Origin: Candidatus Cetobacterium colombiensis
GTDB taxonomy: Bacteria; Fusobacteriota; Fusobacteriia; Fusobacteriales; Fusobacteriaceae
Direction of reading: 5' to 3'
Assembly (NCBI RefSeq): GCF_033962415.1
Contig: NZ_JAVIKH010000002.1
Coordinates: forward strand, 1-64,000
Length of the DNA: 64,000 nt
The notes beneath the pieces were generated by a model that saw only the letters and a program-made list of their open reading frames with translations, searched no databases and had not been told where the DNA came from. The translations under genes were made by a program, and so were the position numbers. Positions 1-58,066 of the stretch are shown piece after piece (within the stretch, counting starts at the first letter, position 1; each line of letters opens with the position of its first letter).

Positions 1-123
1 TGCTCCTAGTGGAAATGTACCATCTGTTGATAAATCTGGAAAATCTAAAACTCTATATGTTATATAAATTCCTAATACCATTATTCCTAATATTAAACTT
101 TGTTCAAGTATGCTTACTATCAT
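1..123 (-). CDS. ABC transporter permease, 5' end only
   Basis: The first 41 codons of a membrane protein read leftward out of the window, starting MIVSILEQSLILGIMVLG. The text contains LSTDGTFPLGA, the form seen after the first membrane helix in permeases paired with TrpX/ABC_sub_bind proteins. A purine-rich ribosome site (AAGGTG) lies about 7 bases before the ATG at 123. It follows the substrate-binding gene by 20 bases on the same strand, so it should be the membrane subunit of the same importer. The remainder lies outside the window. Confidence 0.75.
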   Translation of the reverse strand, partial: MIVSILEQSLILGIMVLGIYITYRVLDFPDLSTDGTFPLGA

Positions 124-143
124 TTTTTTCACCTTACCTTTTC

Positions 144-1064
144 TTATAGATTATTTTCTAGTAGTTTTTCTGGAATTTTTATTCCTAACTCTTTTGCTAC
201 CGATTCATTTATTAAAAGTGGGTATTGTAATGGCATTGCCACAGGTATATCTGTTATTTTCTCACCATTTACTATTTTTCCAATCATCTCTCCAATTATT
301 ACACCAGACCCTTTATAGTCTACTTTAAATCCTCCAAGTGCTCCCTCTTTTACAATCACTTCACCATCCATTGCTATAACTGGTATTTTTTTAGCTTTTG
401 CCTTTGATAAAATAAGTGGTGATGATGACATTGTTAAATTATCTGTTATTGTGAAAAGTACATCTGATTTATTTAAAACAACATCTAAAGCTGATGGTAG
501 TTCATTAGTTGAAGTTATTCCAACATCCACAAGGTTCATATTATTATTTTTTGTAATCTCTTTTAAAAGTTCTACGTTAACTTCTGAATTTTTTTCACTG
601 GGATTAAATATTATTCCTATTGTTTTTGCTGATGGTAAAATCTCTTTAACTAAATTTACCATTAGTTCTGGTGGAACTCTATCTGAAACTCCTGTAACAT
701 TGATTTTATCAGAAGTTACACCTGCAAGTTCAGGATTTGTTATTGCTCCAAAAAGTATTGGTATTTCATTAGTTGTATTCATAGCACTCTGAAGAGTAGG
801 TGTTGATATAGCAACTATAAAATCTTTTTTATTTTTTTTAAAGTTATTCATTATTAATTGCTGAACAGTCATATCTCCTTGTGCAATTTGAGAATCAAGC
901 TTAAATTCTAATTCGCTTTTTTTCAATCCCTCTTCCACACCGATTCTAACTGCATCTAATGCTGGATGCTCAACTATTTGAGATATTCCTATTTCTAACG
1001 GTTTTCCAAAGCTAACTATATTGATTAATGCCATTCCTAATATAACATTTAAAACTTTTTTCAT
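144..1064 (-). CDS. ABC importer substrate-binding lipoprotein-like protein (ABC_sub_bind/TrpX family)
   Basis: 306 aa with a Sec-type signal peptide (MKKVLNVILGMALINIVSFG), then a two-lobed periplasmic binding fold of the ABC_sub_bind family. Recognisable stretches are GISQIVEHPALDAVRIGVEEGL near the mature N-terminus, ISTPTLQSAMN, PILFGAITNPELAG, TIGIIFNPSEKNSEVN, and DGEVIVKEGALGGFKVDYKGSG near residue 240. The family delivers small solutes, often aromatic amino acids, to a YtrF/TrpY-type permease, and that permease gene follows directly. The ATG at 1064 has a strong AGAGGTGGG ribosome site. The leader carries a six-tyrosine-codon attenuator, so tyrosine is the most likely substrate; that is inference from the leader, not from the binding pocket. 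Confidence 0.85.
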   Translation of the reverse strand: MKKVLNVILGMALINIVSFGKPLEIGISQIVEHPALDAVRIGVEEGLKKSELEFKLDSQIAQGDMTVQQLIMNNFKKNKKDFIVAISTPTLQSAMNTTNEIPILFGAITNPELAGVTSDKINVTGVSDRVPPELMVNLVKEILPSAKTIGIIFNPSEKNSEVNVELLKEITKNNNMNLVDVGITSTNELPSALDVVLNKSDVLFTITDNLTMSSSPLILSKAKAKKIPVIAMDGEVIVKEGALGGFKVDYKGSGVIIGEMIGKIVNGEKITDIPVAMPLQYPLLINESVAKELGIKIPEKLLENNL

Positions 1065-1169
1065 AATTTCCCACCTCTTATTTTATTTTTTATAAAAAAC
1101 ATGATGCTTGTCTTAAATCTCAAAATTTGGATAATAGTCTCCGGATAACTTTATCGTTTATTTTAAAAT

Positions 1170-1204
1170 AAAAAAGACCCTTAGGAATAATATCCTAAAG
1201 GTCT
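1170..1204 (-). terminator. Attenuator terminator in the ABC importer leader
   Basis: On the minus strand AGACC-TTTAGGA pairs with TCCTAAG-GGTCT (one mismatch) around a six-base loop and is followed by a run of T. It sits about 105 bases before the start codon, inside the leader, so it must be read through for the importer to be made. The 5' arm can pair with an upstream TATCCTAAA (1229-1237). Confidence 0.85.
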
Positions 1205-1288
1205 AAATAAAACATTTCTGAATTATGATTTAGGATACAGTCTCTATTTTTACAATTACAAATAGACTCATATCCCAATAGATATAAG
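1191..1288 (-). promoter_or_regulatory. Mutually exclusive attenuator stems of the tyrosine leader
   Basis: Four segments can pair in alternative ways. Segment 1 CTTATATC (1288-1281) pairs with segment 2 GATATGAG (1274-1267). Segment 2 extended, GGATATGAGTCTATTT (1275-1260), also pairs with segment 3, which ends AGACTGTATCC (about 1248-1232). Segment 3 end TATCCTAAA (1237-1229) pairs perfectly with TTTAGGATA (1199-1191), the 5' half of the terminator, forming an antiterminator. A ribosome reaching the stop codon would cover segment 1, free segment 2 to trap segment 3, and allow termination. A ribosome held at the first Tyr codons would leave 1:2 paired and 3 free to antiterminate. The pairings are seen; the kinetic logic is inference. 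Confidence 0.75.
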
Positions 1289-1290
1289 CC

Positions 1291-1341
1291 TTACTCATAG
1301 TAATAGTAATAATAGTTTCTGCTAACTCCTTTTATATTCAT
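1291..1341 (-). CDS. Tyrosine leader peptide
   Basis: A 16-codon reading frame encodes MNIKGVSRNYYYYYYE, with six consecutive Tyr codons (TAT TAT TAC TAT TAC TAT at 1314-1297), one Glu and a TAA stop. A GAGGAG ribosome site lies 11 bases before the ATG. It lies between a consensus-like promoter (1409-1437) and a rho-independent terminator (1170-1204), the classic order of a translation-coupled transcription attenuator. Six identical codons in sixteen is very unlikely by chance in a leader. Function: ribosome stalling when charged tRNA-Tyr is scarce. Confidence 0.85.
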   Translation of the reverse strand: MNIKGVSRNYYYYYYE

Positions 1342-1408
1342 AATTCATCATGCTCCTCATTTTTTATTTAACTTATAAATTGTTTTTGGTCATTTATAAG
1401 TTTAGGTA

Positions 1409-1437
1409 AGTATATACTTAAAAAACTATAATGTCAA
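1409..1437 (-). promoter_or_regulatory. Sigma70-type promoter of the ABC importer leader
   Basis: Minus strand TTGACA (1437-1432), a 17-base spacer, then TATACT (1414-1409). Transcription should begin near 1402, about 60 bases before the leader peptide. The -35 and part of the spacer overlap the 3' end of the preceding small gene. Confidence 0.85.
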
Positions 1438-1645
1438 CATTTTTTTGAAAATTTTTTTTTATTAAATCCCCTTTTGAATTATCTAACTTATAACTAAGTA
1501 TGTCTTCGTCAGATATTTTTTGTATTTTTATTTTTGTAGGTTTTACTATATTCAATTTTGTATTAATATCAACTGTTGATCCTTTAGAACTAAATGTTAC
1601 CATAAAATTTAATACAAAAAAAAGAAATAAATACAACTTCTTCAT
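1418..1645 (-). CDS. Small secreted protein, possible minor pilin or pilin remnant, c-di-GMP riboswitch-controlled
   Basis: 75 aa with a clear signal peptide (MKKLYLFLFFVLNFMVTFSS) and a ~55-residue mature part. The stretch STVDINTKLNIVKPTKIKIQ loosely resembles the mature N-terminus of the pilin at 9957-10547 (ASIQIDTKATVINSGLIITG), so it may be a very short or decayed pilin; this is weak similarity by eye. An AAGGAGG ribosome site precedes the ATG. The gene lies directly behind its own c-di-GMP-I riboswitch and promoter, apart from the main pilus operon. Its last codons overlap the promoter of the next unit. No known family recognised. Confidence 0.65.
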   Translation of the reverse strand: MKKLYLFLFFVLNFMVTFSSKGSTVDINTKLNIVKPTKIKIQKISDEDILSYKLDNSKGDLIKKNFQKNVDIIVF

Positions 1646-1685
1646 TTTAATCCTCCTTAAAATTCAATAAATAAAATTTTAATTA

Positions 1686-1711
1686 AAATAAAGTAGTATC
1701 TACTTCTTTTT
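1686..1711 (-). terminator. Possible riboswitch expression platform hairpin
   Basis: Minus strand AAGTAGATACTACTT can fold as a six-base-pair stem with a three-base loop and is followed by an AT-rich TATTTTAATT. It lies between the c-di-GMP aptamer and the small secreted gene, where an expression platform belongs. The stem is weak, so control could instead act at translation. Confidence 0.4.
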
Positions 1712-1784
1712 ATACTGCAACTGGCTGCCATTTTAAAGGCCCTATAGCTTTGCGTCACACAGTTTCCCATGCTTTGCCTTTATT
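1712..1784 (-). ncRNA. Cyclic di-GMP-I riboswitch (GEMM-I), copy 1
   Basis: Read on the minus strand, the aptamer shows the GEMM-I landmarks in order: GGCAAAGC, a short hairpin with GGGAAAC, the hallmark GACGCAAAGC, then GGGCCTTTAAAATGGCAGCC. GACGCAAAGC and the tetraloop/receptor-like GAAA are the core of the class. A 39-base segment ending GGCAGCCAGTTG is almost identical to the second copy at 13.83-13.89 kb. It lies upstream of the 75-aa secreted protein gene. Confidence 0.88.
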
Positions 1785-1803
1785 TTAATTGTTTATAATT
1801 TAA

Positions 1804-1832
1804 TATATATACTAAATATGTACCATTTTCAA
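1804..1832 (-). promoter_or_regulatory. Promoter for riboswitch copy 1
   Basis: Minus strand TTGAAA (1832-1827), a 17-base spacer, TATATA (1809-1804). The predicted start near 1797 leaves about a dozen bases before the aptamer. A second TTGACA (1845-1840) is an alternative -35 element. Confidence 0.6.
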
Positions 1833-1848
1833 AAAAAATTGTCAAGAA

Positions 1849-2289
1849 CTATTTACTATTTTGTCCTATTATTCCTACTCCTATTTCATTCAATATTATT
1901 GTATCTTCATTTTGAATAGACTTGGAGTCTGTTGGTAATTCTTTAAAGATTATATAACTTTTATAATCTTCATTTTTTTTAAATTCTAATTTTTCATTTC
2001 TTTTAAACTCTAACTTCACTATTTTTTGCTCTTTTGGTTTTAATATTATAAATTTTGGAAAACATTGTAGCATTGGTTCTAAACTCCTATTTTGAAACTC
2101 TATTGGAGTTTCAAAATAGGGTAAAAGCTTTATTGTTTTATCACCATTATTTATCAAGTAAATATCTGTTACAGAATTCTTTTTTAAATCCAACTCTATT
2201 TTTGTAGGATTTATTAATAAATTAAAATCCCTTGATAAGATAACACTAAAACAAAATAAATAAATTAGTAATAACTTTATATAAAACAC
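1849..2289 (-). CDS. Short PapD-like pilus chaperone (single Ig domain)
   Basis: 146 aa with a signal peptide ending near LSRDF. The mature part matches the first immunoglobulin-like domain of PapD-type chaperones: INPTKIELDLKKNSVTDIYLINNGDKTIKLLPYF, then FPKFIILKPKEQKIVKLEFKRNE near residue 85 and YKSYIIFKE. The second chaperone domain is absent, and the two larger chaperones of the locus are about 240 aa. It is the last gene of the pilus operon, 26 bases after the tip-protein gene. It may be a dedicated helper for the large protein or a structural subunit using an Ig fold. Function is inferred from fold and context. Confidence 0.6.
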   Translation of the reverse strand: MFYIKLLLIYLFCFSVILSRDFNLLINPTKIELDLKKNSVTDIYLINNGDKTIKLLPYFETPIEFQNRSLEPMLQCFPKFIILKPKEQKIVKLEFKRNEKLEFKKNEDYKSYIIFKELPTDSKSIQNEDTIILNEIGVGIIGQNSK

Positions 2290-2315
2290 ACTCCTTATCT
2301 TTATAATTTAAATTT

Positions 2316-5300
2316 TCAACTATCAGATAGGGTAACATTCAAATAAAATTGTCCATTGTGTTGCCCTTCTAAGGTGCTATTTTCAGTTTCTAAAAGAGTT
2401 CCATTTAAAATAAAATAACTATTTCCATTGTCGCTTTCTTTTTGCTCTGAACTTACTGAAAAATTCCCAGCCTTAACTTCAGAATCTCCATTTCTTAAAC
2501 TTACTTTCCCTTCAGAATCTGTAATTGGAGTTAAAGTCAACTCCATTCCTGATAAATTCTTTAGAACTATTTTAGAATTTGCAGTTTTTGTATTATCTCC
2601 TTTTAAAACTGTTCCAAAGTCTAGAGTATCCTTAGATACTATTTCAAAAGTTGGTCCTGGTGTTCTTAGCGTAACCGTATACTCTCTTCTTACCAAACCT
2701 GATTTTTCTTTATGAATAATTTTAAGAACATGGGAATTTCCTACCCAATTTTTAAGAGATATTGAAGCTAATCCTTGATTATTATAAATTATATCCATTC
2801 CTAAATTAAATTTTTGAATTGCCACAGTAGTATCACCTGAAGGATTCATCTCTTTAGAAGCTAATAGGGTCGTTCCATCTAACACTTCTAACTTTCCATC
2901 ATTTAATTCTAATCCATTGATAAACTGCCCTGAGTTTAGATTTACTTCTACACTTTGATTATTTGGATTTCCTGCAACATCAAAGTTTATTATATCACCT
3001 TTTGTATAGCTATTTGTAAATTTTATTTCTATATTGTTATTAATTATTAAATCTTTTTTTATCGTTAAATTAGGGTAATCCCTTTCAACAATTCTTGAAG
3101 GATCTGAATCTATTGGAAATTTATATTTATTACTTGAATAACTTCCTTGAACAAAGGCTATTTTTTCATCAGTTTGAAGAGAAACATTCATTTCAGAAAC
3201 ACTTCTTGTATAAGATAAAATCTCTTTTTTATCTGTATTTTTAATTTTTATAGCTAATTTTGCAAAAACTTCCTCTCTACTATTATTTGAATAAACCCAA
3301 ATACCTAAATTGGAATTTTCACCACTTTTTTGTGCTCCTCCTTGAATCAATGAATTCCCCTCTAATACTCCACCTCTTAATTCTTTAAAATATGGATAAG
3401 TTTTAAATTTTGCATTATAATTAGCAGTATAAGTAGTTCTATTAACTAAATTTGTATTTTCTTGGAATAAATAACCATTTGCAGCACTTTCCTTTTTACC
3501 TAAAGCTATCATTGGAATCTGATTATCATTTGAAATCATACTTTTCTGTTGAAAATATACAAATCCTGATTCTTTTTCTAAATCGTTATTTTCTATTAAC
3601 TCTTTTTCACCAATCTCTAAATTATTAAGTTTATAATCATACTCAAAATTTCCTGTAGAACTCTGATTTCCACTATTTTTCTTAAATTTTATTTTTGGAT
3701 AAATAATCTCTCTAATCTCCCCCAAAGCGGTATTTGGAATATATATTTGTGTATTTCCATTATTTGCCGAACTTGGGATTAAAGATATTTTATAATTATC
3801 ATCATATGGTATTTCAACAATATCTTCATTTTTTGTATATGCATATTTTTGGATTGATTCTAATATATCCCTTGAAAGTGCTATTTTTATTTCTGCATCT
3901 AACGTAGCTTGTGATGATTTTTTTTCATAAGTTGCTAACGTTACAGATCTGTTTCCAGAATCAATACCAATTTCCCCTTTTAATTTTTTTTGAAATAAAA
4001 GGGCATTATCACCTACACTTATTTTTTTTAAATATGGATAAATAGATTTTCTCTCTCCTATATTTAGAAAAACATTAGGTACTTCATTAAAGCCTGCCAT
4101 ACTCGTTGTATTACTCCACTTATCGATACCCCCAACATATTCCCAACTTGATTGAGTCCCTAAACCTAATGCTGGAGATAAATCTATTCCACTTTGTGAT
4201 GTTTTTCTCCATACAGAAACTCTACCTAAAGATATAATATAAAAATTGTCTGAAAATTTTTCAATTTCATTTTCATCTATTATATGATCTCTTAATCCAT
4301 TTATATTGTAACTGAAATAATTATTATATTTATCTGGATTTTTTCTTATATATATTTTAGGGTAAGGAAGAGTTATCTTATTATTACTCAAATTTTTATT
4401 AGGAATATCATAAAACCCATTTCCACTAGAACTTCCTATAACTAGAGATATTTGATTTGAATCTCCAAGATTTTTATAAGGTATCTCCACAAGTCCATTT
4501 ACACCAGACACATTACTTGCATAACTTTTAATCTCCTCTATTGTCAATGCATCTATTTTAATGCTTAAATCAGCTTCTACAAACTCATTTTTACTTGTTT
4601 CATATGCTCCTATAGCTATTTTATTAGAGGAATCCTCTTTTATATTATGAAAATATATTTTTCTACTCTGACCTATATTTCCTGATGGATTTGAATTTTT
4701 ATACTTTAATTGAGGTTTCATTTTTCCTGTTATAGAACTATTATTAAATTCAACCTTGATACTTTCTTCAGAACCTTCAACTGGTAGTCCACCATTATGA
4801 TTTTCCTTTCTCCAAATACTCTCATTTCCTAAAGCAATTATAGGAAAAAATTCAGAGCCACTATTTAATCTTTGCTCAAATCTAATGTTTATAGGAGATG
4901 AAATAAAATCTCCAGTATGATTTGATTCTATTATTATATTTCCATCATTGTTTACAACATAACTAAAATCTGATATTGAACCAACAGCAAAATTCTCTTT
5001 AGGTAAAGTAAACTCAGCCTTATAAATATTTTCAACCATACCAGATTTATTATTTAAAACAGCTAGATAAAGTGTTTCTGGTTTCATCTCATAAGAAACT
5101 TCTAAAACTTTATTAACACTATTCCCCGTTAGGCTATAACTTATATTTTTAAGTTTTATTTTTTCTCCATTTTTTAACTTAACTCCCTGCTCTAAAACTT
5201 TATTCATTTTAGATTTTTCATTTTTTTTCATATAAGTTCCAGCATTGTCTAAACTTTCTAAAATAAAAATATCGTAGTTATTAGTATCTCTTACAATTCT

Positions 5301-5534
5301 CTTTTTTTCTGCAGCTTTTTTTAGATCTTTAAAATCAAAAATAATTTTCTTTTCCTTTTCGTATATCACTCCAGTTATTTTATCTGTTTTTATCTTTAAA
5401 ACTTCAATATCTAAATTTGCTTTCTCCCTTTTAGGTAAGGCCTCTACCGTTGTAACTTTAGTTTCAGAAAAACTAGTTAAGAAAATACAAATAAATAATC
5501 CCATATTTATCAAAAATCTATTTATTTTTCTCAC
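2316..5534 (-). CDS. Large secreted repeat protein, putative pilus tip adhesin
   Basis: 1072 aa with a signal peptide (FLINMGLFICIFLTSFS). After an N-terminal region of ~185 residues there are three diverged tandem modules of roughly 200 residues. Each holds a segment of the kind PIIALGNESIWRK / ALGLGTQSSWEY / PMIALGKKESAANG, a PYLKKI/PYFKELRGG stretch, and a helix-like segment such as ALTIEEIKSYASN / LSRDILESIQKYAY / TDKKEILSYTRSV followed by EIPY. The C-terminal ~220 residues are beta-rich and end in LNVTLSDS. It is encoded with the usher and chaperones and overlaps the end of the 148-aa gene by 17 bases. An adhesive tip role is inference from size, secretion and operon position. Confidence 0.6.
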   Translation of the reverse strand: MRKINRFLINMGLFICIFLTSFSETKVTTVEALPKREKANLDIEVLKIKTDKITGVIYEKEKKIIFDFKDLKKAAEKKRIVRDTNNYDIFILESLDNAGTYMKKNEKSKMNKVLEQGVKLKNGEKIKLKNISYSLTGNSVNKVLEVSYEMKPETLYLAVLNNKSGMVENIYKAEFTLPKENFAVGSISDFSYVVNNDGNIIIESNHTGDFISSPINIRFEQRLNSGSEFFPIIALGNESIWRKENHNGGLPVEGSEESIKVEFNNSSITGKMKPQLKYKNSNPSGNIGQSRKIYFHNIKEDSSNKIAIGAYETSKNEFVEADLSIKIDALTIEEIKSYASNVSGVNGLVEIPYKNLGDSNQISLVIGSSSGNGFYDIPNKNLSNNKITLPYPKIYIRKNPDKYNNYFSYNINGLRDHIIDENEIEKFSDNFYIISLGRVSVWRKTSQSGIDLSPALGLGTQSSWEYVGGIDKWSNTTSMAGFNEVPNVFLNIGERKSIYPYLKKISVGDNALLFQKKLKGEIGIDSGNRSVTLATYEKKSSQATLDAEIKIALSRDILESIQKYAYTKNEDIVEIPYDDNYKISLIPSSANNGNTQIYIPNTALGEIREIIYPKIKFKKNSGNQSSTGNFEYDYKLNNLEIGEKELIENNDLEKESGFVYFQQKSMISNDNQIPMIALGKKESAANGYLFQENTNLVNRTTYTANYNAKFKTYPYFKELRGGVLEGNSLIQGGAQKSGENSNLGIWVYSNNSREEVFAKLAIKIKNTDKKEILSYTRSVSEMNVSLQTDEKIAFVQGSYSSNKYKFPIDSDPSRIVERDYPNLTIKKDLIINNNIEIKFTNSYTKGDIINFDVAGNPNNQSVEVNLNSGQFINGLELNDGKLEVLDGTTLLASKEMNPSGDTTVAIQKFNLGMDIIYNNQGLASISLKNWVGNSHVLKIIHKEKSGLVRREYTVTLRTPGPTFEIVSKDTLDFGTVLKGDNTKTANSKIVLKNLSGMELTLTPITDSEGKVSLRNGDSEVKAGNFSVSSEQKESDNGNSYFILNGTLLETENSTLEGQHNGQFYLNVTLSDS

Positions 5535-5964
5535 TCCCCTTTTTCACATATTGAGAAACTACTATTGGAATATATCCCACATACTCCCCTTCCACATCAA
5601 TAACTTCTCCATCATTAATATTTTTTCGATCTAAAACAGCATAAAAAGGAATATGTTCCCTCTCCTTAGTAACAATCATCTCTTTTTTAGACGATTCCAT
5701 TCCCAATTTCTCAACTTTTAACCATTTTCTACGATTTGTCATAAGGTTGTATTCTGGAAATTCAAACATTATTTTTTTTCCAATATCTTCCTCTTTATTG
5801 TCTGTAAAAACTTCTATAATACCTTTTCCCAAAACTTTATCTTTATCTAAGTGAGTGGTATTGATATTTGTAAATCTCATGGGTTCTACTATTTTAACTT
5901 TTATTTCAGAAAAAGTTACATTTCCAATGCTAGCTAATAAAAATATTAAAATTGTTTTTTTCAT
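5518..5964 (-). CDS. Secreted pilus-operon protein, unknown family
   Basis: 148 aa with a signal peptide (MKKTILIFLLASIGNVTFSE). The mature part is beta-rich: IKVKIVEPMRFTNINTTHL, GIIEVFTDNKEEDIGKKIMFEFPE, and a lysine-rich C-terminus. The N-terminal wording EIKVKIVEPMRFTNI fits minor pilins of the alternative chaperone-usher type, but I cannot name the family. It is separated by 2 bases from the 183-aa gene upstream and overlaps the tip-protein gene downstream, so it is translated from the same message. Minor subunit or adaptor is the likeliest role. Confidence 0.55.
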   Translation of the reverse strand: MKKTILIFLLASIGNVTFSEIKVKIVEPMRFTNINTTHLDKDKVLGKGIIEVFTDNKEEDIGKKIMFEFPEYNLMTNRRKWLKVEKLGMESSKKEMIVTKEREHIPFYAVLDRKNINDGEVIDVEGEYVGYIPIVVSQYVKKGSEKNK

Positions 5965-5966
5965 AT

Positions 5967-6518
5967 TTACTTCCCATCCTTAACTTCAACTGTTATATAA
6001 ACTCTTTTTCTATGTAATCCCTCTTTTGTAATATTAGAACCGTCAATGCTTAAAATATTGTCATCTACAATTTTTTTATTAATATATTTAGGTGAATATA
6101 TTTTCGTATCAATTTTCCCATCATTATCTAAATCTAACTCTTTTTCAGAGTATTTTAAAACATAGTAGTCCTTTTTTTCAGGCTCTTTATTCATCTCTAT
6201 TTCAAATGGAATATCAAGTTTTTGATTGTCAATAATCATAGCTTTTATCTCTACATCTGATATTATTTCTAAAGGTACTATAACTTTAACTTTACTTTCC
6301 ATCATAATTGTAGACATTTTTTCCAAAACCCAAACATCTTCATTTTCATCTACTGTCTCGTTAGGAACAGCTGGTATCATAGGTATAATTGGAATTGATG
6401 TTCCTAAATCAGCCACTGGTGGCCCCATAGTTTCATCAGAAGGAAGTGTCATTATTCCATTTGATGAAAAAACTGATATCTGTGTTAACATATAAAAAAG
6501 TATTAATAAACCCTTCAC
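5967..6518 (-). CDS. Secreted pilus-operon protein with DxDNDGxxD motif
   Basis: 183 aa with a short signal peptide, a proline-rich linker (VADLGTSIPIIPMIPAVP, residues ~35-55), then a beta-rich domain. The segment ELDLDNDGKIDTKIYS near residue 130 matches the DxDNDGxxD calcium-binding loop used in many secreted proteins. It lies 15 bases after the usher gene and 2 bases before the next gene. The family is not recognised; a minor subunit stabilised by calcium is a reasonable guess. Confidence 0.55.
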   Translation of the reverse strand: MKGLLILFYMLTQISVFSSNGIMTLPSDETMGPPVADLGTSIPIIPMIPAVPNETVDENEDVWVLEKMSTIMMESKVKVIVPLEIISDVEIKAMIIDNQKLDIPFEIEMNKEPEKKDYYVLKYSEKELDLDNDGKIDTKIYSPKYINKKIVDDNILSIDGSNITKEGLHRKRVYITVEVKDGK

Positions 6519-6533
6519 ATTTTTACCCCTATC

Positions 6534-9140
6534 TTAATTTTTTAAAAGTATTATTCCCTTTTCTTTAAATTCTAAAACAATCTCATTATCTTTATCTTCT
6601 ATATATTTTAAATCTATTTTTTGTTTTAATGGTGGTATATCTAATTTATCTCCATAATAATTTATCTCAATATTATAACTTCCAGTAAATAGTTCACTAA
6701 CATAAAAAACTCCTGTCTCATCTGGAATAGTATTTTCTAAAACTTTTCCATTTTCATCTTTTATCTTTATTATTATATTGTCATAAATCTCTTTTATATC
6801 ATTTTCACTTAAATTTAATTTGTCATCCACTACAAATATCCCTGATAAAGTTACCATAGCTTTTAAAGGAATATAAGCTTCAATAGTTCCTGTATTTGTT
6901 CCACGAACTGCTATTTTATTATTACCTAGAGAGTAAGATGGTTTTCTAACTTTAGGATTTAAGTTATATAAAACACCATTTGGAACTCCAAAGAAGTATG
7001 CTTCCCCCTCCTCTGTTGTCACCTCTGTTTGTGAACCAATTTTAATTTCTACATTATCAACTAATTTCTCTCCTTTATCATAAATGTCATTACCATTTTC
7101 ATCTATAAAGGCTGTAACTTTAACTCTGCTGGAATCCATACTTTCTATATTTCTAGTTATGTTCTTTAAGTCTACAACTTTATCCACTCCAAGTCTATAG
7201 TTTTGTTGACCATTTTTTCCAGCAAACATTCCTGCCCTAAACCAGTTGTCGTAGTTTAAATCAAATCTAAATGTAAATTTCGATTCATCTCTATTTGAAT
7301 AACTAAACTCTATGGAAAAATCAAAAGTATCCCATATATTTTTATTCATAAGAGTTAAAACACTTTCATAATCTTTTCCATTTTCGCTCCATCTATTATT
7401 TAATCTAGTATTTAAATAGTGTAGTCCTGTATAATAAAGATTTAAAGAATATTGATCATTTTGATTATTTCCTTTTCTATATTCAGTTGTAACAAGAAGG
7501 TCTCTCATTAAGTTTTTATAAATTGAAACTCCTGCATCATAATTTTTTTCAGTTTTTTCCTCATAGTAATCATTTATATAGTAGTTTACATCAATTAAAT
7601 ATCCATTATTAGAGTTATATTCCACTGTATACGTTCTTACAGTTTCAAGGTCATAATATAATCCAAAGTTTTGATGCTCTGTTATAAATTTAAAATTATT
7701 TACTTGAATTTGAGTTTCTAGATATTCTTTCGTTCTTTTATCCTTAGCTTTTTCAGTACCTAGTACTAAAGTATAAGGCATTCTATAAATAGAGTTAGAA
7801 TAGACAGCTTCTGCATTAAAAATATCTAAATATTCCACTTTATTATCTGATGTTTCAATACTTCTTATATATCCAGTTCCTAAAGTTAAATTTTCCGTAA
7901 GACCATAGTAAATATTTCCTTCACTTGAATATTTCCCAGTGTCATGATCCTCTCTTACTCTAAAATCATACTCTAGTTCACCTTTATTTTGTTGTCTAAA
8001 ATCAACTGCTGTATTTATATCTATAGTATAAATTTTCCCACTTGGATCATAAACTCTTAAAGTGTATTCTCTATCACTTTTTATCTCTTCATTTTCAAAC
8101 TCTACAATACCATTTTCAGCATACTGAACAGCAATTGGAAATCCTAAATAAAGTAGCTCAACTCTACTACCAATAGGAACATTTTCTCTAATTACAATAT
8201 TTTTTCCTTGATAAAAGTATCCCTTTTCTTTTCGTAAACTAAGTCCTAGTTCTCTTTGTGTTGTCCCATAACTTCCAAATTCAAGTGAATGATTTTTATA
8301 AATCTCAGGATAATAAAAATATGTATCACCAATTGTTTCATCTTTTAAATCGTAAGCTGTGGTAAATTCACCATAAAGTAAGTTCCCTTGATACTCTAAA
8401 TCTCCTGTCCAACCAGTTTCATAATTTTCACCTTTATTTTTAGATAGCTCTCCTTGGACATTTACTCTCATATATCCAACATCAAATAGCTTATTTTCAT
8501 TTGTATAAACAAACTCATTTTTACTTTCTTTTCTTTGTTCATTGTCTAGCTTATTATCTAGAGATATATCAATTTCAATTGGAGTTATAAATGTCAGCTG
8601 AGTTTTAAAAGTCAACTTCTTTGTATCTATCTCCAATGAGTTTGTAAAAATACTTTTAAATAGTTCTACCTCTAAATAAATTTCATTGTCCTCTTTTATT
8701 ATTTGAGTTTCATTAAACTCTATTTTTCTATTTGGATTATTTAAAATTACCGTATGTTTCGTCCAATCAATATCTATATTATTAAGTTCTTTTCCAACTT
8801 TCATGGAAATTCCATTTTTTTCTAATTCGTAGTTTTTAAATCTGATTATGTTTAAAAATTCCATCAATGGGATATAGTCTGCTCCATCTTTCTTTAAAAG
8901 TTTTAAATTATTTGATCTAACTCTTCCGTTTATTAAAACTGAATAAAGCATTTCATCATTTAAAGATGATGTTCCCTCTATCTCTGCTTTTAAAATTTCA
9001 TACTCCTCTTCTGTTATAAGATTTTGAGCTTTAAAAACCTCTAAATCTTCCAATGAGTAATCTGATGAATATGTTGTTGTGAATAGAATTAATCCAATCC
9101 CTAGGAGATTTTTTAAAAACTGACTATTTCTTTTTTTCAT
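6534..9140 (-). CDS. Outer-membrane usher of a divergent chaperone-usher pathway
   Basis: 868 aa with a signal peptide. Residues ~27-55 (YSLEDLEVFKAQNLITEEEYEILKAEI) resemble a SHOCT-like helical hairpin, which is unusual for an usher. A plug/N-domain region follows, with VLINGRVRSNNLKLL. The middle (~210-690) is a series of amphipathic strands typical of a 24-strand barrel (GEFTTAYDLKDE, YRMPYTLVLG, FTFRFDLNYD). IGSRVELLYLGFPIAVQ and YTLRVYDPSGKIYT match the usher plug surroundings. The C-terminal ~170 residues hold two small beta-sandwiches, the first with DENGNDIYDKGEKLVDNVEI, a carboxypeptidase-regulatory/SdrB-like signature. This resembles the alternative (class 5-like) ushers more than FimD. 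It lies between the second chaperone and the minor subunits. Confidence 0.75.
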   Translation of the reverse strand: MKKRNSQFLKNLLGIGLILFTTTYSSDYSLEDLEVFKAQNLITEEEYEILKAEIEGTSSLNDEMLYSVLINGRVRSNNLKLLKKDGADYIPLMEFLNIIRFKNYELEKNGISMKVGKELNNIDIDWTKHTVILNNPNRKIEFNETQIIKEDNEIYLEVELFKSIFTNSLEIDTKKLTFKTQLTFITPIEIDISLDNKLDNEQRKESKNEFVYTNENKLFDVGYMRVNVQGELSKNKGENYETGWTGDLEYQGNLLYGEFTTAYDLKDETIGDTYFYYPEIYKNHSLEFGSYGTTQRELGLSLRKEKGYFYQGKNIVIRENVPIGSRVELLYLGFPIAVQYAENGIVEFENEEIKSDREYTLRVYDPSGKIYTIDINTAVDFRQQNKGELEYDFRVREDHDTGKYSSEGNIYYGLTENLTLGTGYIRSIETSDNKVEYLDIFNAEAVYSNSIYRMPYTLVLGTEKAKDKRTKEYLETQIQVNNFKFITEHQNFGLYYDLETVRTYTVEYNSNNGYLIDVNYYINDYYEEKTEKNYDAGVSIYKNLMRDLLVTTEYRKGNNQNDQYSLNLYYTGLHYLNTRLNNRWSENGKDYESVLTLMNKNIWDTFDFSIEFSYSNRDESKFTFRFDLNYDNWFRAGMFAGKNGQQNYRLGVDKVVDLKNITRNIESMDSSRVKVTAFIDENGNDIYDKGEKLVDNVEIKIGSQTEVTTEEGEAYFFGVPNGVLYNLNPKVRKPSYSLGNNKIAVRGTNTGTIEAYIPLKAMVTLSGIFVVDDKLNLSENDIKEIYDNIIIKIKDENGKVLENTIPDETGVFYVSELFTGSYNIEINYYGDKLDIPPLKQKIDLKYIEDKDNEIVLEFKEKGIILLKN

Positions 9141-9162
9141 CTTAATCCCCCCTAAAATAGAT

Positions 9163-9885
9163 TTAAATTTTAACTTTCATAACAACATCATCATTCTCTT
9201 TTATCAATAAAGTGTTGTATCTTTTTATATTTTTAAAAACAACTTCATCTTTTATCTCTTGGTTAAATTCTTTTAAGTCTAAATCTTCATCCTTTAAAAT
9301 TCTCTTATTCCCCAATAAAAAGCTATTTTGATTTCTTGAGTCACTTAAATAAAATGAAAACGTTCCTCTTCTGTTTCCAGTGTTTTTTATTTTTCCAGAA
9401 AAACTTAATTTATTGTTTTCTTTTGTTACCTGTAAATTTTTTGCATTTAAATTAGTTTTTAATTCTCCCACATATCCTACAATTTCAATTTTTAAGTTTG
9501 TTAATACCTTTAAGCTTGAACCTTTACTTTTTAAATCTTTCTCTTTTACAACTGGCATCTCTTTAACTCCCAATACCGTTGTGTATTCTCCATTTTCTGT
9601 TCCTACAGGAGCTTTTATAAAAACTTTTAGTATTCCCTCTTGTCCAGGTTTTAAATTAAGAACCTTTGGATAGTATTCAACCCAGCTAGTCATATCTTTT
9701 TTGTCTTTACTTTTTTCCACTGAAAAAAGATATTTAATTCCAGTGTTTGTTCCATTGTAAAGATAATACTCTTGGACCTCTCCAGCTCCACCTATATTTT
9801 TATCAAAAGTTACTGGATGAATATTTACATATGGATATACTTTAGAAAATAGAATCATAAGTATAATAAAAATGTTTTTTTTCAT
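9163..9885 (-). CDS. Periplasmic pilus chaperone (PapD-like), intact copy
   Basis: 240 aa with a signal peptide (KNIFIILMILFSKVYPYV). The first Ig domain holds YYLYNGTNTGIKYLFSVEK, WVEYYPKVLNLKPGQEGILKVFIKAP, the F1-G1-like edge region used for donor-strand complementation, and GEYTTVLGVKE. The second domain begins near NAKNLQVTKENNKLSFSG. It is a paralogue of the disrupted chaperone at 10569-13769, which has the same 240-residue length and conserved WVEFYPKVLTVKPGETGLLKVF. It lies immediately before the usher gene and behind a hairpin that separates it from the pilin gene. It folds and escorts subunits to the usher. Confidence 0.78.
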   Translation of the reverse strand: MKKNIFIILMILFSKVYPYVNIHPVTFDKNIGGAGEVQEYYLYNGTNTGIKYLFSVEKSKDKKDMTSWVEYYPKVLNLKPGQEGILKVFIKAPVGTENGEYTTVLGVKEMPVVKEKDLKSKGSSLKVLTNLKIEIVGYVGELKTNLNAKNLQVTKENNKLSFSGKIKNTGNRRGTFSFYLSDSRNQNSFLLGNKRILKDEDLDLKEFNQEIKDEVVFKNIKRYNTLLIKENDDVVMKVKI

Positions 9886-9900
9886 TATCTTTCCCCTTTA

Positions 9901-9930
9901 AAAAAGCCTCTAAAAACTTAGAGGCTTTTA
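9901..9930 (-). terminator. Intra-operon terminator hairpin between pilin and assembly genes
   Basis: Minus strand AAAGCCTCTAA pairs with TTAGAGGCTTT around a four-base loop and runs into TTTTTT. Only 16 bases separate it from the chaperone start codon at 9885, so assembly genes downstream depend on readthrough unless a hidden promoter exists. The expected effect is far more pilin message than chaperone/usher message. Confidence 0.85.
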
Positions 9931-9956
9931 CATTTATAATTATCTTGATGGTATTG

Positions 9957-10547
9957 TTATAGCTGTATTTTACTAATTTTTACTGTTAATGTTGATACAT
10001 TTGTATAATCTCCATCAACTAACTCTTGATCTAAAGCTCCTGCTAAAGCTCCTGCTGCTATCTTTGATTCAAGATTTATTTTTACATTGTTTTTATTTTC
10101 TAAAACAGCAAATTCATTTGTAGCAGTAGTTGTTGCTCCTGTTAATGCAATACTTCCTCCTGTTGTTGAGTTTGAGTCTACTGCTGCTGTTAATGTATGA
10201 GCAATTGCGTTATCTCCATTTTTTAAGTTATTACCTGCTGCCGCATTTAATTTTACTTCTAAAACTGTCCCCTCTGGGAAAGTTCCTTCGTTAGCTCTTT
10301 TTACAAAAACATCTTTATTTACAGTTGATGTAGCTTCTGCTGTTGCTAATATAACTCCGTGATCTAAATCTAATTGAGATATTGCTCCTGTTCCGTTCTC
10401 TTGTCCTGTTATAATTAATCCTGAATTAATTACAGTAGCCTTTGTATCTATTTGGATTGAAGCTTTTCCAGTATCCCCTGTATTCTCAAGAGACTGTGCC
10501 ATAAGTGTTGTTGATAATGCTAATAACCCTAGTAAAATTTTTTTCAT
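9957..10547 (-). CDS. Major pilin subunit (putative)
   Basis: 196 aa with a signal peptide (MKKILLGLLALSTTLMAQ). The mature protein is small-residue rich and beta-prone: TGKASIQIDTKATVINSG at the N-terminus, then alternating Ala/Thr/Gly/Asn segments, and it ends in a regular strand VSTLTVKISKIQL. This composition and layout match structural subunits of class 5/alternative chaperone-usher fimbriae. It is followed by a strong hairpin and preceded by the riboswitch-led, now broken, chaperone gene. Codon use is simpler and more uniform than in neighbours (many GCT/ACT/GTT), suggesting high expression. It has no cysteines. Confidence 0.7.
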   Translation of the reverse strand: MKKILLGLLALSTTLMAQSLENTGDTGKASIQIDTKATVINSGLIITGQENGTGAISQLDLDHGVILATAEATSTVNKDVFVKRANEGTFPEGTVLEVKLNAAAGNNLKNGDNAIAHTLTAAVDSNSTTGGSIALTGATTTATNEFAVLENKNNVKINLESKIAAGALAGALDQELVDGDYTNVSTLTVKISKIQL

Positions 10548-10682
10548 TTTTTTCCTCCCAATATTTATCTATATTTTTAGTTTGTTAATTGTTCTGTAAT
10601 TTATATCCTCGTATATTTCAATTTCGTAAGGGTCGTTTTTTTTCATACCATTTAACTCTAAAGTAATTTTTTTACTTTCCCC

Positions 10683-10740
10683 TGTGACTGATATAATAGA
10701 TTGTAAGATTTTGTTAGAGAACCCTGCAAATTTTCGTGAG
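10683..10740 (+). repeat. IS21 left inverted end
   Basis: 58 bases beginning TGTGACTGATATAATAG and ending TTTTCGTGAG. It aligns end-to-end with the reverse complement of 13099-13156, with matches concentrated in four blocks. Confidence 0.8.
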
Positions 10741-10827
10741 AGGAGAATGCTTGATTTTTTCTAAAAAATATTGTAATAAAAGTAGTCATTAAATAACAAG
10801 GAGATGGCTGCTTTGAAAGGACTGTAT

Positions 10828-12339
10828 ATGTTTGAAGAAATAAAAAAATTAAAGGCATTACCTCTAAAATTAAAAGAATCTCAAGTTGCTAAACAATTGA
10901 ATATTGATACTAGAACAGTTAAAAAATATTGGAATATGACTGAACAAGATTTTTTAAATCTTGTAAAAAAACTTAATGAAAGTAAATCAAAATCAGTATT
11001 AGATCAATATAAAGATGAAATATTAGGATTCTTAACAACTTACAAAAGTTTTACTGCTGCTCAGGTTTATGACCGTTTAAAAGAACAACATATTAATTTT
11101 AATTTATGCGAAAGCAGTGTTAGAAATTACGTTGCTAAATTAAGAGAACAACATAATCTTAATAAAAAAATTAAAGAACGTGAATATGTTGCTGTGGAAG
11201 AACTTCCTATGGGAAAGCAAGCGCAAGTAGACTTTGGAGAAATTATTCTTTACGATATTGAAAATAAACCTGTAAAAGTGTGGACTTTTGCCATGGTATT
11301 ATCTCATTCAAGATATAAATATGGTTATTGGCAAGATAAGCCATTTAATGCTCAAGATTTTGTAGATGTACATAATAAAGCCTTTCGGTATTTTGGTGGA
11401 ATTCCAGAAGAAATTGTATATGATAGAACAAAGGTTGCACTGATAAATGAAAATGAAGATGGAACTTTTAAATTATGTAAAACTTTTGAAGAATATGTTG
11501 AGAAAGTTAAGTTTAAACCGGTGTTTTGTAAACCTTACGATCCAGAAAGTAAAGGGAAAATAGAAGCTGTTGTTAAATATTTTAAGTTCAATTTTGCTAA
11601 TCATAGAACATACAAAGGGATTGATAATCTAAATGCAGCTTTTCATAGATGGCTAGAACGAACTGGAAATACAAAAATTCATCAGACAACAAAAAAAGTG
11701 CCATCAGAAGTATTTTCCCTGGAAAGACAATACCTTTCTGATAAGCACCTATCTAAAGACATCCAAATTATACAACATAGAGTTAAAAAAGACAATACGA
11801 TTTCTTATGAAGGCAATAGATATTCCTTACCTAAGGGAACATATAGCGCTCATAAAAATGTGGCTCTAAATATTGTTGGTGATTTACTGGAAATTAAAAC
11901 GTTAGATTTAAACTTAATAATTTCATATAAAATAACTAGTGGTAAAGGTAGACTAATTCAGAAAGAACCATATCATAGACAAGTAGATAAAGGAATTTCA
12001 GAGCTTAAAGCTGAAATATTTGAACAATTTAAATATAATGAGAAATTAGTGGAGTATATTGAAAAGTTGATAGTTTCTGATCCTAAAAATGTTAGAAGAA
12101 ACCTAGTTAAGTTGCAAACTTTAGGGAATGAGTTTTCTTTAAACTTTTTAATTGGAGGTGTGGAATACGCTATTTTAAAAGGTGATTTATCATTAGCAAC
12201 TTTAACTTTAAAAGTTAAGCAATATGCATTACCTGTAAAAAAAGAAGAATCTTCACAAAATGATTTGATTCCTAAAATTTGTGATGTAAATACACGTAGT
12301 ATTTTAGAATACCAAAATATTCAGGAGGAAGGACTATGA
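10828..12339 (+). CDS. istA: IS21-family transposase IstA
   Basis: 503 aa from the ATG at 10828, chosen because GAAAGG lies 7 bases upstream; an in-frame ATG at 10804 has no usable spacing. An N-terminal helix-turn-helix is visible (SQVAKQLNIDTRTVKKYW, residues ~20-37). The rve-type catalytic core has the three acidic positions in QAQVDFGEI, VYDRTKVAL and DPESKGKIEAVVKYFK. The basic C-terminal part is typical of IstA. Length is normal for the family (about 400-510). The stop overlaps the istB start (ATGA), indicating translational coupling. It catalyses strand transfer of the element. Confidence 0.93.
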   Translation: MFEEIKKLKALPLKLKESQVAKQLNIDTRTVKKYWNMTEQDFLNLVKKLNESKSKSVLDQYKDEILGFLTTYKSFTAAQVYDRLKEQHINFNLCESSVRNYVAKLREQHNLNKKIKEREYVAVEELPMGKQAQVDFGEIILYDIENKPVKVWTFAMVLSHSRYKYGYWQDKPFNAQDFVDVHNKAFRYFGGIPEEIVYDRTKVALINENEDGTFKLCKTFEEYVEKVKFKPVFCKPYDPESKGKIEAVVKYFKFNFANHRTYKGIDNLNAAFHRWLERTGNTKIHQTTKKVPSEVFSLERQYLSDKHLSKDIQIIQHRVKKDNTISYEGNRYSLPKGTYSAHKNVALNIVGDLLEIKTLDLNLIISYKITSGKGRLIQKEPYHRQVDKGISELKAEIFEQFKYNEKLVEYIEKLIVSDPKNVRRNLVKLQTLGNEFSLNFLIGGVEYAILKGDLSLATLTLKVKQYALPVKKEESSQNDLIPKICDVNTRSILEYQNIQEEGL

Positions 12340-13082
12340 ATGATTTAGACATATTAAGAAATATGGCAAACCAACTAAAACTTTCTACTTTAAAAACTAG
12401 CATTATGAAATTTATTGAAGAAGCAGAACAAGGAAGTGAAACATACAAAGAATTTCTTTTTAAGATACTGAAAGCTGAAGTTGAGCGAAAAGAAAAGGAT
12501 GCTTTAAGAAATCGAATTAAAAGAGCAAGGTTTCCTTATCCAAAAGAGATAGAAACTTTTGATACTACTTTTCAGAAATCTATTGATAAAACTAAAATAA
12601 ATATTTTAAAAGAAATGAAATGGATTGATAATATGTACAACTTAATTTTCTTGGGGCCACCTGGAGTAGGAAAGTCTCATTTGATGATAGGCTTAGGATA
12701 TCGCGCTGCAGAATTAGGATATCATGTTCTCTTTCTTACTATGAGTGAATTAATATATTTTTTAAAGAATAAGGCTGATTGTAGGAAATCGAGAGAGGTA
12801 ATAAATCGCTTAAATAAATGTGATTTACTAATGATAGATGAGGTCGGATATATTCCATTAACTAAGGAAGATGCTAACTTGTTCTTTGAAATAGTAAGTG
12901 GTCTTCATGAAAAAACATCAATTTGTATAACATCAAATAAAGATTTTAGTCAATGGACAGAGCTTCTTCAAGATGAAGCTCTAGCCACCGCGATATTAGA
13001 TCGTTTGGTTTACAGATGTCAGGTATTCAATCTAAAAGGTAACAGCTATCGACTAGAAAATAGAGAAACTATCTTCAAGTAA
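12336..13082 (+). CDS. istB: IS21-family helper ATPase IstB
   Basis: 248 aa AAA+ ATPase related to DnaA/DnaC. Walker A is FLGPPGVGKSHL near residue 105 and Walker B LLMIDEVGYIP near residue 166; sensor-like TSNKDFSQW and an arginine-finger region ATAILDRLVYRCQ follow. It has normal IstB length. It overlaps istA by four bases. It organises target DNA and activates IstA. Both motifs are intact, so the pair is likely functional. Confidence 0.93.
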   Translation: MNDLDILRNMANQLKLSTLKTSIMKFIEEAEQGSETYKEFLFKILKAEVERKEKDALRNRIKRARFPYPKEIETFDTTFQKSIDKTKINILKEMKWIDNMYNLIFLGPPGVGKSHLMIGLGYRAAELGYHVLFLTMSELIYFLKNKADCRKSREVINRLNKCDLLMIDEVGYIPLTKEDANLFFEIVSGLHEKTSICITSNKDFSQWTELLQDEALATAILDRLVYRCQVFNLKGNSYRLENRETIFK

Positions 13083-13098
13083 AAACTTGCAAATGCCA

Positions 13099-13156
13099 CT
13101 CACGAAATTTTGCAAACTCTTATCATTTTTTTTTACAAATATGATTGACGTTCACA
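13099..13156 (-). repeat. IS21 right inverted end
   Basis: Reverse complement of the left end in block pattern: read outward-in from 13156 it begins TGTGAACG and ends TTTCGTGAG. It is immediately followed by the CCCC target duplication. Confidence 0.8.
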
Positions 13157-13777
13157 CCCCTTCGTATATACGCCCTAACGTATTTCTAACTAAACTATTT
13201 TTTTTCCCTTTAACTTGAATCCCAAATTCCACTCCTCTTTTATCAGAAGGATTTTTTATAGAAATATCTAACTTCGTTTTTCCATTTTCCTCATAAACTC
13301 TGTACTTTTCTATTTTTATTTCAGGCTCTAAATTTCCAACATATCCTATCATCTCTAAAGAGGTGTTTATTTTAATTCCTACATTAGACTTTATTCCACT
13401 TCCATCTTTTTTCATGTTTGGAATTGATATAAGCGAACTGTCTAAGTGGAAACCATACTCCCCTTCTTTAGCTTGTTTTGGTGCTTTAGCAAAAACTTTT
13501 AAAAGCCCAGTTTCTCCTGGTTTAACTGTTAAAACTTTCGGATAAAATTCCACCCATTGACTCATATCTCCTCTTATATCGCTTCCTGGAGATGCTGAGA
13601 ATTTATATCTCAAAGTTTCTAATCCATTATTTGGAAAATAAAACTCTTGATACCCTTGACCATTGTCTATTCTTTTTTCAAATCCATCTGGCATAATATG
13701 AAAACTATAAGAAATAAGATTAAAAATTGTAAAAAAAAGTGTGATTAGTTTTTTCATTTTCCTCCCCAATAATTCAA

Positions 13778-13828
13778 AAATTTTACAAAAAAAAAATTAC
13801 ACTTATTGTATATGACCATACAACTTGT
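13778..13828 (-). terminator. Possible expression platform of riboswitch copy 2
   Basis: Minus strand GTTGTAT...ATACAAT forms a short stem just after the aptamer and is followed within ten bases by a run of ten T. This is consistent with a weak intrinsic terminator before the chaperone ribosome site GGGGAGG. Confidence 0.5.
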
Positions 13829-13892
13829 CCAACTGGCTGCCATTTTAAAGGCCCTATAGCTTTGCGTCCCTAAATTTCTCCAGGTTTGCGAT
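13829..13892 (-). ncRNA. Cyclic di-GMP-I riboswitch (GEMM-I), copy 2
   Basis: Minus strand order: CGCAAACC, a hairpin closed around GGAGAAATTT, the hallmark GGACGCAAAGC, then TATAGGGCCTTTAAAATGGC and AGCCAGTTG. The second half is nearly identical to copy 1 at 1712-1784, while the first hairpin differs with compensating changes, as expected for a conserved RNA. It heads the pilus operon (chaperone, pilin, assembly genes). A TATAAT at 13917-13912 is a plausible -10 box for its promoter. Confidence 0.88.
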
Positions 13893-14171
13893 ATTTTTTC
13901 TTTAGAACTTTATTATAAACTATTTTATACAAAAAAACTATTAGAAATTTTTTTATTTAAAAAAATTTTTTCTTCTAGAATAAAAATACGAACATTTTAT
14001 ACATTTTGTATTTTTTTTTAACTTATCAATTTGACAAAGAAAAAAATAAATTTCTGATATAATCAATTTGAGTCATTGTTAACATCCTTTCTATTATCCC
14101 CCTGTAGTTTAGTAGTGTTTATTACAAGGGTTATAATATCAAATTAAGGATTTATCTGTATTACCATATAC

Positions 14172-56347: not shown

Positions 56348-58066
56348 TTAATATAAATAATATCTTTGTGCCAATGCAAATTCTTCTAGCGGATCACAAG
56401 TTATTAATTTTCCATCTATTGTTACTTCATATGTTTGTGGATCTATTTTTATATCTGGTAACTCTGCATTAAATTTCATATCTTTCTTAGTAAGATTTCT
56501 TAAATTTTCAACTGGTAAAACTATTTTTTCCAATCCTAATTTTTCTTTTACTCCATGCTCATAAGCATATTTTGACACGAAAGTTATATGAGAGTGATGT
56601 AATGCTTTTCCTTTTGCTCCATATAATTCACGAACTAATCTTGGCTCTGTAGTTGGTAAACTTGAACTTGCATCTCCCATTACTCCATAAGATATTGTTC
56701 CACATTTTAAAATCATCATAGGTTTTGTACCAAACATTTTTGGTTCCCATAAAACTAAATCTGCATATTTTCCTACTTCTACTGATCCAATATGAGTACT
56801 TATTCCTGAAACGATAGCTGGATTTATTGTATATTTAGCCACAAATCTTTTTATTCTATTGTTATCTGAATATTCGCTGTCCCCTTCTAAAGGTCCACGT
56901 TGTTTTTTCATTTTGTCAGCTAATTGCCATGTTTTCATATTTACTTCTCCAATTCTTCCCATGGCCATAGTATCTGAACTCATCATACTTATAACACCCA
57001 TATCGTGTAAAACATCCTCAGCTGCTATTGTTTGTTTTCTTATTCTTGAATCTGCAAATGCCACGTCTTCTGGTATTTTTGGATCTAAGTGGTGACAAAC
57101 CATTAACATATCAAGTTCTTCTGGAACACTATTTTTTCCATAAGGATTTGTTGGACTTGTAGATGATGGTAATACATTTAAGTGACTTGCCATTACCATT
57201 ATATCTGGAGCATGTCCTCCTCCAGCACCTTCAGTGTGATATGTGTGAATTGTTCTTCCTGCAATTGCATTTAATGTATGCTCAACAAATCCACCTTCAT
57301 TTAATGAATCTGTATGGATTGCAACTTGAACATCATATTTATCTGCAGCTCTTAATGTATAATCTATACCAGCTTGTGTTGCTCCCCAGTCCTCATGTAT
57401 TTTTAAACCTACAGCTCCTGCTTCTATTTGCTCCGCTATAACTCTTTCATTATCTCCAGCTCCTTTACCTAAAATACCAATATTTATAGGTAAATCATCA
57501 TGTGATTGTAACAATCTTTCTATATGCCAAGCACCTGGAGTTGCTGTTGCAGAACGCGTACCATCTGCAGGTCCTGTTCCTCCTGCTATTATCGTTGTAA
57601 TTCCATTATCTAAAGCAGCATGAACTATATCTGGTGTAATTAAGTGAACATGTGTATCTATTCCACCGGCAGTTACTATAAGTCCCTCTCCTGCTATCGA
57701 TTCTGTACTTGCTCCTACAACAAAATCTATATTATCCATTAAATCTGGATTTCCACCTTTTCCTATAGCAATTATTCTTCCATCTCTTATTCCTATATCT
57801 GCTTTATATACTCCAGTGTAATCTATTATTACTACACTATTTATTATTGTGTCAACAACTAAAGGATTTCCTTCTCTAGTTTCTATAGGATTTAATCCCA
57901 TACCATCTCTTAGAGTTTTTCCTCCTCCAAATTTTGATTCCTCTCCATATACTGTTAAATCTTTCTCTACTCTTGCAAATAAATTGGTATCTCCTAGTCT
58001 TATACTATCTCCTGTTGTAGGACCAAACATATCCGAATATTTTTTTCTATCCATCTCAAAACTCAT
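56348..58066 (-). CDS. ureC: Urease alpha subunit UreC
   Basis: 572 aa, full length. Nickel ligands are in [12 protein letters not shown] (~133-144), the carbamylated Lys in [12 protein letters not shown] (~220), HTDSLNEGG and [18 protein letters not shown], and Asp in [12 protein letters not shown]. The flap region [22 protein letters not shown] is present. It hydrolyses urea to ammonia and carbamate in the cytoplasm. It follows ureB by 12 bases. Confidence 0.97.

Follow-up and report, generated by a model that had tools for sequence, protein, structure and literature searches.

The DNA analysed here, a window of 64 kb that lies at the very start of contig C2 in a genome of 2.8 Mb and 92 contigs, opens inside the permease gene of an ABC importer, and the locus of interest occupies positions 1437-1064 on its minus strand (Table 1). 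In the direction of transcription, a sigma-70-type promoter is followed by a leader peptide with six consecutive tyrosine codons, by a set of mutually exclusive RNA segments with an intrinsic terminator, and by the genes for a TrpX-like substrate-binding protein (SBP) and the permease. Of the importer's membrane and energising parts, the window contains only the start of the permease gene, the ATPase gene lying outside it. The promoter, the leader, the three alternative stems and the terminator claimed in the original prediction are all present on the minus strand and in the places given there. Transcription of the leader would start at about 1402, and the hairpin located at the 5' end of the transcript perhaps plays a role in mRNA stability. 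A palindrome, AAGTATATACTT, at 1410-1421 overlaps the -10 box of the leader promoter and is a possible operator. A second copy of the SBP gene, 93% identical and having no leader and an unrelated upstream region, was found at L002 1533-2453 (G000:C44). Behind each of the two SBP copies, the assembly is interrupted within the permease gene.

Table 1. Features of the importer locus, in window coordinates
Feature	Position	Strand	Remarks
Promoter, sigma-70-type, TTGACA-17-TATACT	1409..1437	-	11/12 consensus positions; top match in 1-6000
Hairpin at 5' end, AACTTATAAAT...ATTTATAAGTT	1370..1402	-	11 bp
Shine-Dalgarno (SD) GAGGAG of leader peptide	1353..1358	-	11 nt to ATG, rather long
Leader ORF MNIKGVSRNYYYYYYE*	1291..1341	-	six consecutive Tyr codons at 1314-1297
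Segment 1	1281..1291	-	immediately 3' of last leader codon; partner, segment 2
Segment 2, GGGATATGAGTCTATTT	1260..1276	-	partner, segment 1 (stalled) or 3 (translation completed)
Segment 3	1228..1249	-	3' part TATCCTAAAT (1237-1228) is the antiterminator 5' arm
TCATAATTCA	1219..1228	-	perfect 10-bp complement of leader start region TGAATTATGA (1347-1338)
Segment 4, terminator 5' arm	1193..1204	-	TTTAGGATA (1199-1191) pairs with segment 3
Terminator loop, 3' arm (1186-1175) and T tract TTTTTT (1174-1169)	1169..1192	-	hairpin -18.0 kcal/mol
Intrinsic terminator hairpin	1204-1175	-	between leader and structural gene
Stem 1:2	1291-1281 with 1274-1264	-	
Stem 2:3	1276-1260 with 1249-1233	-	
Stem 3:4 (antiterminator)	about 1237-1228 with 1199-1191	-	
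SBP gene, PF04392, TrpX-like	144..1064	-	306 aa
ABC permease gene	1..132	-	start only (GTG start), cut by contig end

Folding was carried out on the emerging window transcript, truncated so that the terminator lacked its 3' arm, for a ribosome standing at each leader codon in turn. An energy-based measure of switching was used, and the probability of pairing of the terminator 5' arm gave no information for the window, as weak alternative pairs are counted too. With the ribosome anywhere up to Tyr5, stem 1:2 forms together with the antiterminator 3:4, which is stabilised by about -7 kcal/mol, while at Tyr6/Glu16 the leading edge enters segment 1 and the antiterminator gain drops; to mask segment 1, a ribosome must have come to the end of the Tyr run or gone past it. 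When the ribosome stands at the stop codon, the stabilisation of the antiterminator is -2.9 kcal/mol, since 2:3 has captured segment 3, and on the untranslated leader, which carries no ribosome, it amounts to -0.6 kcal/mol, since the leader start region pairs perfectly with its complement at 1228-1219 in the antiterminator loop. The outcome was the same for footprints of 10-15 nt, and the size of the switch (-4.2) was attained in 7 of 400 linker shuffles. In this model, the three expected states, namely on when starved, off when fed and off when untranslated, are predicted to emerge from the window sequence.

The sequence elements are in place and thermodynamically compatible with the following mechanism. 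When charged tRNA-Tyr is scarce, the ribosome would stall on the six Tyr codons with its leading edge upstream of segment 1, and stem 1:2 would form, which would leave segment 3 free for the antiterminator 3:4 and allow the polymerase to read into the importer genes. When tyrosine is plentiful, the ribosome would reach the stop codon and cover segment 1, whereupon segment 2 would capture segment 3 and the terminator 4:5 would stop transcription. Without translation, the leader start region would pair into the antiterminator loop, by which the terminator would likewise be favoured.

The his and leu attenuators of enterobacteria are multi-segment devices with a run of codons for the regulated amino acid, in which a stalled ribosome leads to the antiterminator and an untranslated leader to the terminator. 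The window leader resembles them in its codon run, its alternating stems and both of these outcomes, and differs in that it would sense tyrosine, has five segments, precedes an importer gene, belongs to the Fusobacteriaceae and matches no Rfam leader family. A trp-like logic, with segment 1 covered by the stalled ribosome, was discarded: starvation would then lead to termination, and, judging by the codon positions, a ribosome on any of Tyr1-Tyr4 has its edge upstream of segment 1. The likeness to the trp operon leader (Rfam Trp_leader) is thus confined to the general principle, the stalled ribosome in the window freeing segment 1 instead of masking it. Of the attenuator logic first put forward, the ribosome-mediated part stands, whereas a trp-like order of events gives way to a multi-segment one of the his/leu kind, since stem 1:2 stays free during a stall and segment 1 is masked once the ribosome has reached the stop codon.

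The substrate of the importer was approached through its binding protein, which scored 217.8 bits against PF04392 (ABC_sub_bind), over the gathering cut-off of 25.9, and 212.6 bits against the TrpX equivalog model NF041285, far under the curated cut-off of 390. The latter score would fit an importer for a different aromatic amino acid, Trp or Phe, or for more than one, tyrosine being only the signal of the attenuator, and so would the Trp leaders used by relatives in the family, including a candidate one, MKINKVALFWWSWIIT, belonging to the closest family homolog (G046, 43%), the SBP of which has an acidic residue in the same pocket loop all the same. The best solved homolog of the window SBP, 6hni (CD0873), points the other way, as it binds tyrosine through a Glu263 that contacts the tyrosine hydroxyl, whereas Phe- and Trp-binding relatives have Ala at the Glu263 position and Tyr279 is replaced by Gln in the Trp binder (PMC6816091). 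At these selectivity positions the window SBP appears to have an acidic residue and a Tyr rather than Ala and Gln: its Tyr250 aligns with Tyr279 of CD0873, and its Asp233 lies opposite Glu263 in the pairwise HMMER alignment, though in a one-residue insertion, one column off, in that of MAFFT. Glu occupies this pocket position in 11 of the 12 SBPs directly behind Tyr leaders, the twelfth being the window protein with its Asp, and in none of the 20 behind Trp leaders; as these SBPs are often closely related, the p value of the 2x2 table overstates independence and becomes about 0.015 when they are collapsed by hand to lineages. There are exceptions, in that some SBPs with Glu or Asp at the pocket position have no recognisable leader.

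The distribution of transporters within the genus bears on the same question. The genus set comprised 12 genomes, two of which, beyond the present genome and nine others, are incomplete. An AGCS carrier, 79-100% identical, occurs in these nine and is preceded by a YYYYY leader and a terminator in all of them; its ortholog is absent from the present genome, where the best match reaches 52% and has no leader. Conversely, the window-type SBP is absent from the nine genomes with the AGCS leader, and the present genome is the only one to have it. This is explained most simply by DISPLACEMENT within the genus, a tyrosine importer replacing a tyrosine symporter. The presence of the operon where the Tyr-leader symporter is absent also counts against transport of another aromatic amino acid, which we regard as unlikely, and tyrosine is preferred as the transported ligand. 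A DNA search of the genus for an orthologous copy of the window leader returned, apart from that leader, nothing but a chance match of 37 bp within coding sequence. Among the AGCS leaders of the genus, the 1:2, 2:3 and terminator pairs are kept in 97-99% of cells, with hardly any compensatory changes.

Leaders of the same type turned out to be distributed well beyond this importer. The combination of an SD, an ATG and five Tyr codons was matched in 34 of 98 Fusobacteriota genomes, while the reversed control gave no match; some of these matches lie inside ordinary coding sequence, and a filter for short in-frame ORFs was applied. The wider scan as a whole yielded dozens of Tyr-run leaders, mostly followed by a terminator. 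They precede tyrS (TIGR00234), AGCS carriers (TIGR00835), DAHP synthase (NF006421), prephenate dehydrogenase (TyrA), SSS symporters and TrpX-like SBPs, and the notion of a one-off tyrosine device has to be given up, since similar leaders sit before other tyrosine genes. Besides the Fusobacteriaceae, a scan of the collection added Erysipelotrichia, Oscillospiraceae, other Clostridia, Acholeplasmataceae, Bacillales and Synergistaceae; many of its 112 stretches were chance or repeat matches, such as those in Flavobacterium and the repeats of Clostridium psychrophilum, and were left out. Behind nearly all of the Tyr leaders, 20-140 nt past the stop codon, there is a hairpin with a T tract, two Erysipelotrichia picks inside coding sequence having been dropped from this survey. 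A codon-dependent switch was obtained in eight other leaders and attained in 0 of 40 shuffles. Folding gave a weak switch or none in several AGCS and tyrS leaders, and the simple folding model therefore does not explain all leaders. Two Tyr leaders in a row were observed before one AGCS symporter gene (L220 1514-1789 and G054:C37:18764-19014).

The occurrence of these leaders also weighs on a different mechanism, a tnaC-like arrest peptide, by which free tyrosine or another small molecule would arrest the ribosome via the nascent peptide and high tyrosine would turn the importer on. Fusobacteria ferment amino acids, and in the folding model a stalled ribosome gives readthrough whatever stalls it, but no conserved peptide motif exists apart from the Tyr run; the leaders differ outside it between genes and genera, as expected for codon sensing, and the same runs precede tyrS, DAHP synthase and TyrA, which are genes wanted in starvation, so that such an arrest is very improbable.

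In 38.4 Mb of simulated dinucleotide-Markov sequence of the same make-up, an SD and start followed by at least five consecutive in-frame Tyr codons within an ORF no longer than 45 codons was never encountered, and by the same criteria at least four Tyr codons were met about 0.8 times per 2.8 Mb. The RNA from 1402 to 1166 folds at -72.6 kcal/mol, with z = -8.7 against shuffles. A run of six Tyr codons alone, lacking SD and start, is not rare in the AT-rich genomes searched, where control patterns gave similar counts, and the significance of the run therefore lies in the combination of SD, start and run. That run and stems are a chance product of AT-rich DNA, with the terminator that of an ordinary constitutive leader, has a probability close to negligible, for although bare six-Tyr runs and the reversed control have about equal frequencies in many of these genomes and no orthologous leader is available for covariation, the simulated sequence held no comparable ORF, the fold is far from that of shuffles, and the link to tyrosine genes recurs across unrelated lineages.

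The locus is thus very probably a transcription attenuator of the ribosome-mediated kind, with tyrosyl-tRNA as its signal and a tyrosine ABC importer under its control, both the tyrosine response and the binding being predictions. The tyrosine attenuator originally proposed is backed by the position-dependent folding and by the Tyr leaders before other tyrosine genes, and the proposed substrate by the residues of the binding pocket and the apparent displacement of the symporter in the genus. As in other leader-peptide attenuators, an ORF with an SD and cognate codons, a terminator and, in silico, a ribosome-dependent antiterminator are found together, and the regulated gene would serve the sensed amino acid, judging from homology, pocket residues and the similar leaders on tyrS, DAHP synthase and TyrA.

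The original prediction pointed to homologous importers in Firmicutes, usually tied to T-boxes; this does not hold for the relatives of the same family, which use Trp leader peptides instead. WWW leaders stand before TrpX-like SBPs in Ilyobacter (G040), g4, g13 and one g12 genome. In genus g12, all three genomes have six-Tyr runs some 200-300 nt ahead of SBP homologs, with the leader peptides MAHTFAYWRNDYYYYYYGSRIFV, MAHTFAYWWSYYYYYYYSSDFSLNNKQM and MKLSTYWQDYYYYYYYCINNLYNKQVDRF. In the g12 Tyr leader, the 3' part of the ORF contains the antiterminator arm, where AATAATAAGCAG pairs with CTGCTTATT of the terminator; the counterpart in the Trp leader is AATAATAGACAGG, which pairs with CCTGTCTTAT. 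The g12 Tyr leader probably derives from a Trp leader, because the DNA is similar and the changes in both pairing partners match. The two are also alike in the 3' part (AATAATAAGCAGGTGGATAGGTTTTAG versus AATAATAGACAGGTGAATCAGGTTTTG), in contrast with the window leader, whose layout, with a hairpin right after the stop codon and then 2:3, 3:4 and the terminator, resembles the AGCS leaders of its own genus. Although they share the gene family, the leader peptide and the terminator with the window device, the WWW leaders of Fusobacteriaceae would sense tryptophan and have an antiterminator arm inside the leader ORF and two terminators.

Several single loci may be recorded here. At the g12 loci L218, L219 and L069, the Tyr leader is followed by two tandem terminators, for each of which a separate antiterminator arm lies in or close to the ORF, and the first terminator displays a matching change, GATAGGT/ACCTATC versus ACAGG/CCTGT. 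L067 (G049) contains a Trp leader (MTIRFTWWWQSRLHDLSNRQVNQVLPLFAVN) and a Tyr leader in one locus, each before its own SBP gene. At L081, in the importer operon of the closest family homolog of the window SBP, the candidate Trp leader lies 213 nt before the permease gene at 1413.

We lean towards the broader view that Tyr leader peptides are widespread, undescribed attenuators of tyrS, AGCS and SSS carriers, DAHP synthase, TyrA and TrpX-like importers in Fusobacteriaceae and Firmicutes-type lineages, where they would stand in for T-boxes, and that, in the importers, a change between Trp and Tyr codons in the leader went hand in hand with a change of the binding pocket, which would make the leader a predictor of the substrate. 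At the gathering threshold, Rfam yielded no T-box (RF00230) or leader family at the locus, and no T-box was present in the window or in the 12 genomes of the genus. Among described systems, trpX of Streptococcus suis is a homologous importer gene likewise controlled by tRNA charging through a terminator, but by a T-box leader (PMC9382623), which binds uncharged tRNA directly. The uORFC-13-1 motif is a predicted leader-ORF attenuator, again on an aromatic pathway gene, aroF of Acholeplasma (PMC8632094), and differs in its Phe codons, genes and lineage. The His leader peptides on hisS/hisZ in Firmicutes (PMC2965389) likewise replace T-boxes outside Proteobacteria, with histidine as the amino acid. 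In the searchable open-access literature, no report of a tyrosine-specific ribosome-mediated attenuator was found. If the present reading is true, tyrosine would join the amino acids sensed by ribosome-mediated attenuation, several transporter families whose usual annotation is that of alanine, proline or tryptophan carriers would receive a predicted substrate, and tyrosine regulation in fusobacteria, where T-boxes are rare, would gain a mechanism. Moreover, the paired change of leader codon and pocket residue in the importers makes a joint specificity switch of regulator and transporter testable.

Elsewhere in the window, an Rfam 5_ureB_sRNA match at 57616-57913 on the plus strand, antisense to the urease alpha-subunit gene, probably reflects only conserved urease coding sequence. 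Two c-di-GMP-I riboswitches (1713-1788 and 13825-13900, minus strand) lie near chaperone-usher-like pilus genes (1849-13769). The minus strand of 15146-39072 carries Zorya-type defence genes (ZorD, ZorC-like, ZorB and ZorA), which adjoin an SspC/BrxP/PbeC/PbeA-like cluster of the phosphorothioation type with a cysteine desulfurase.
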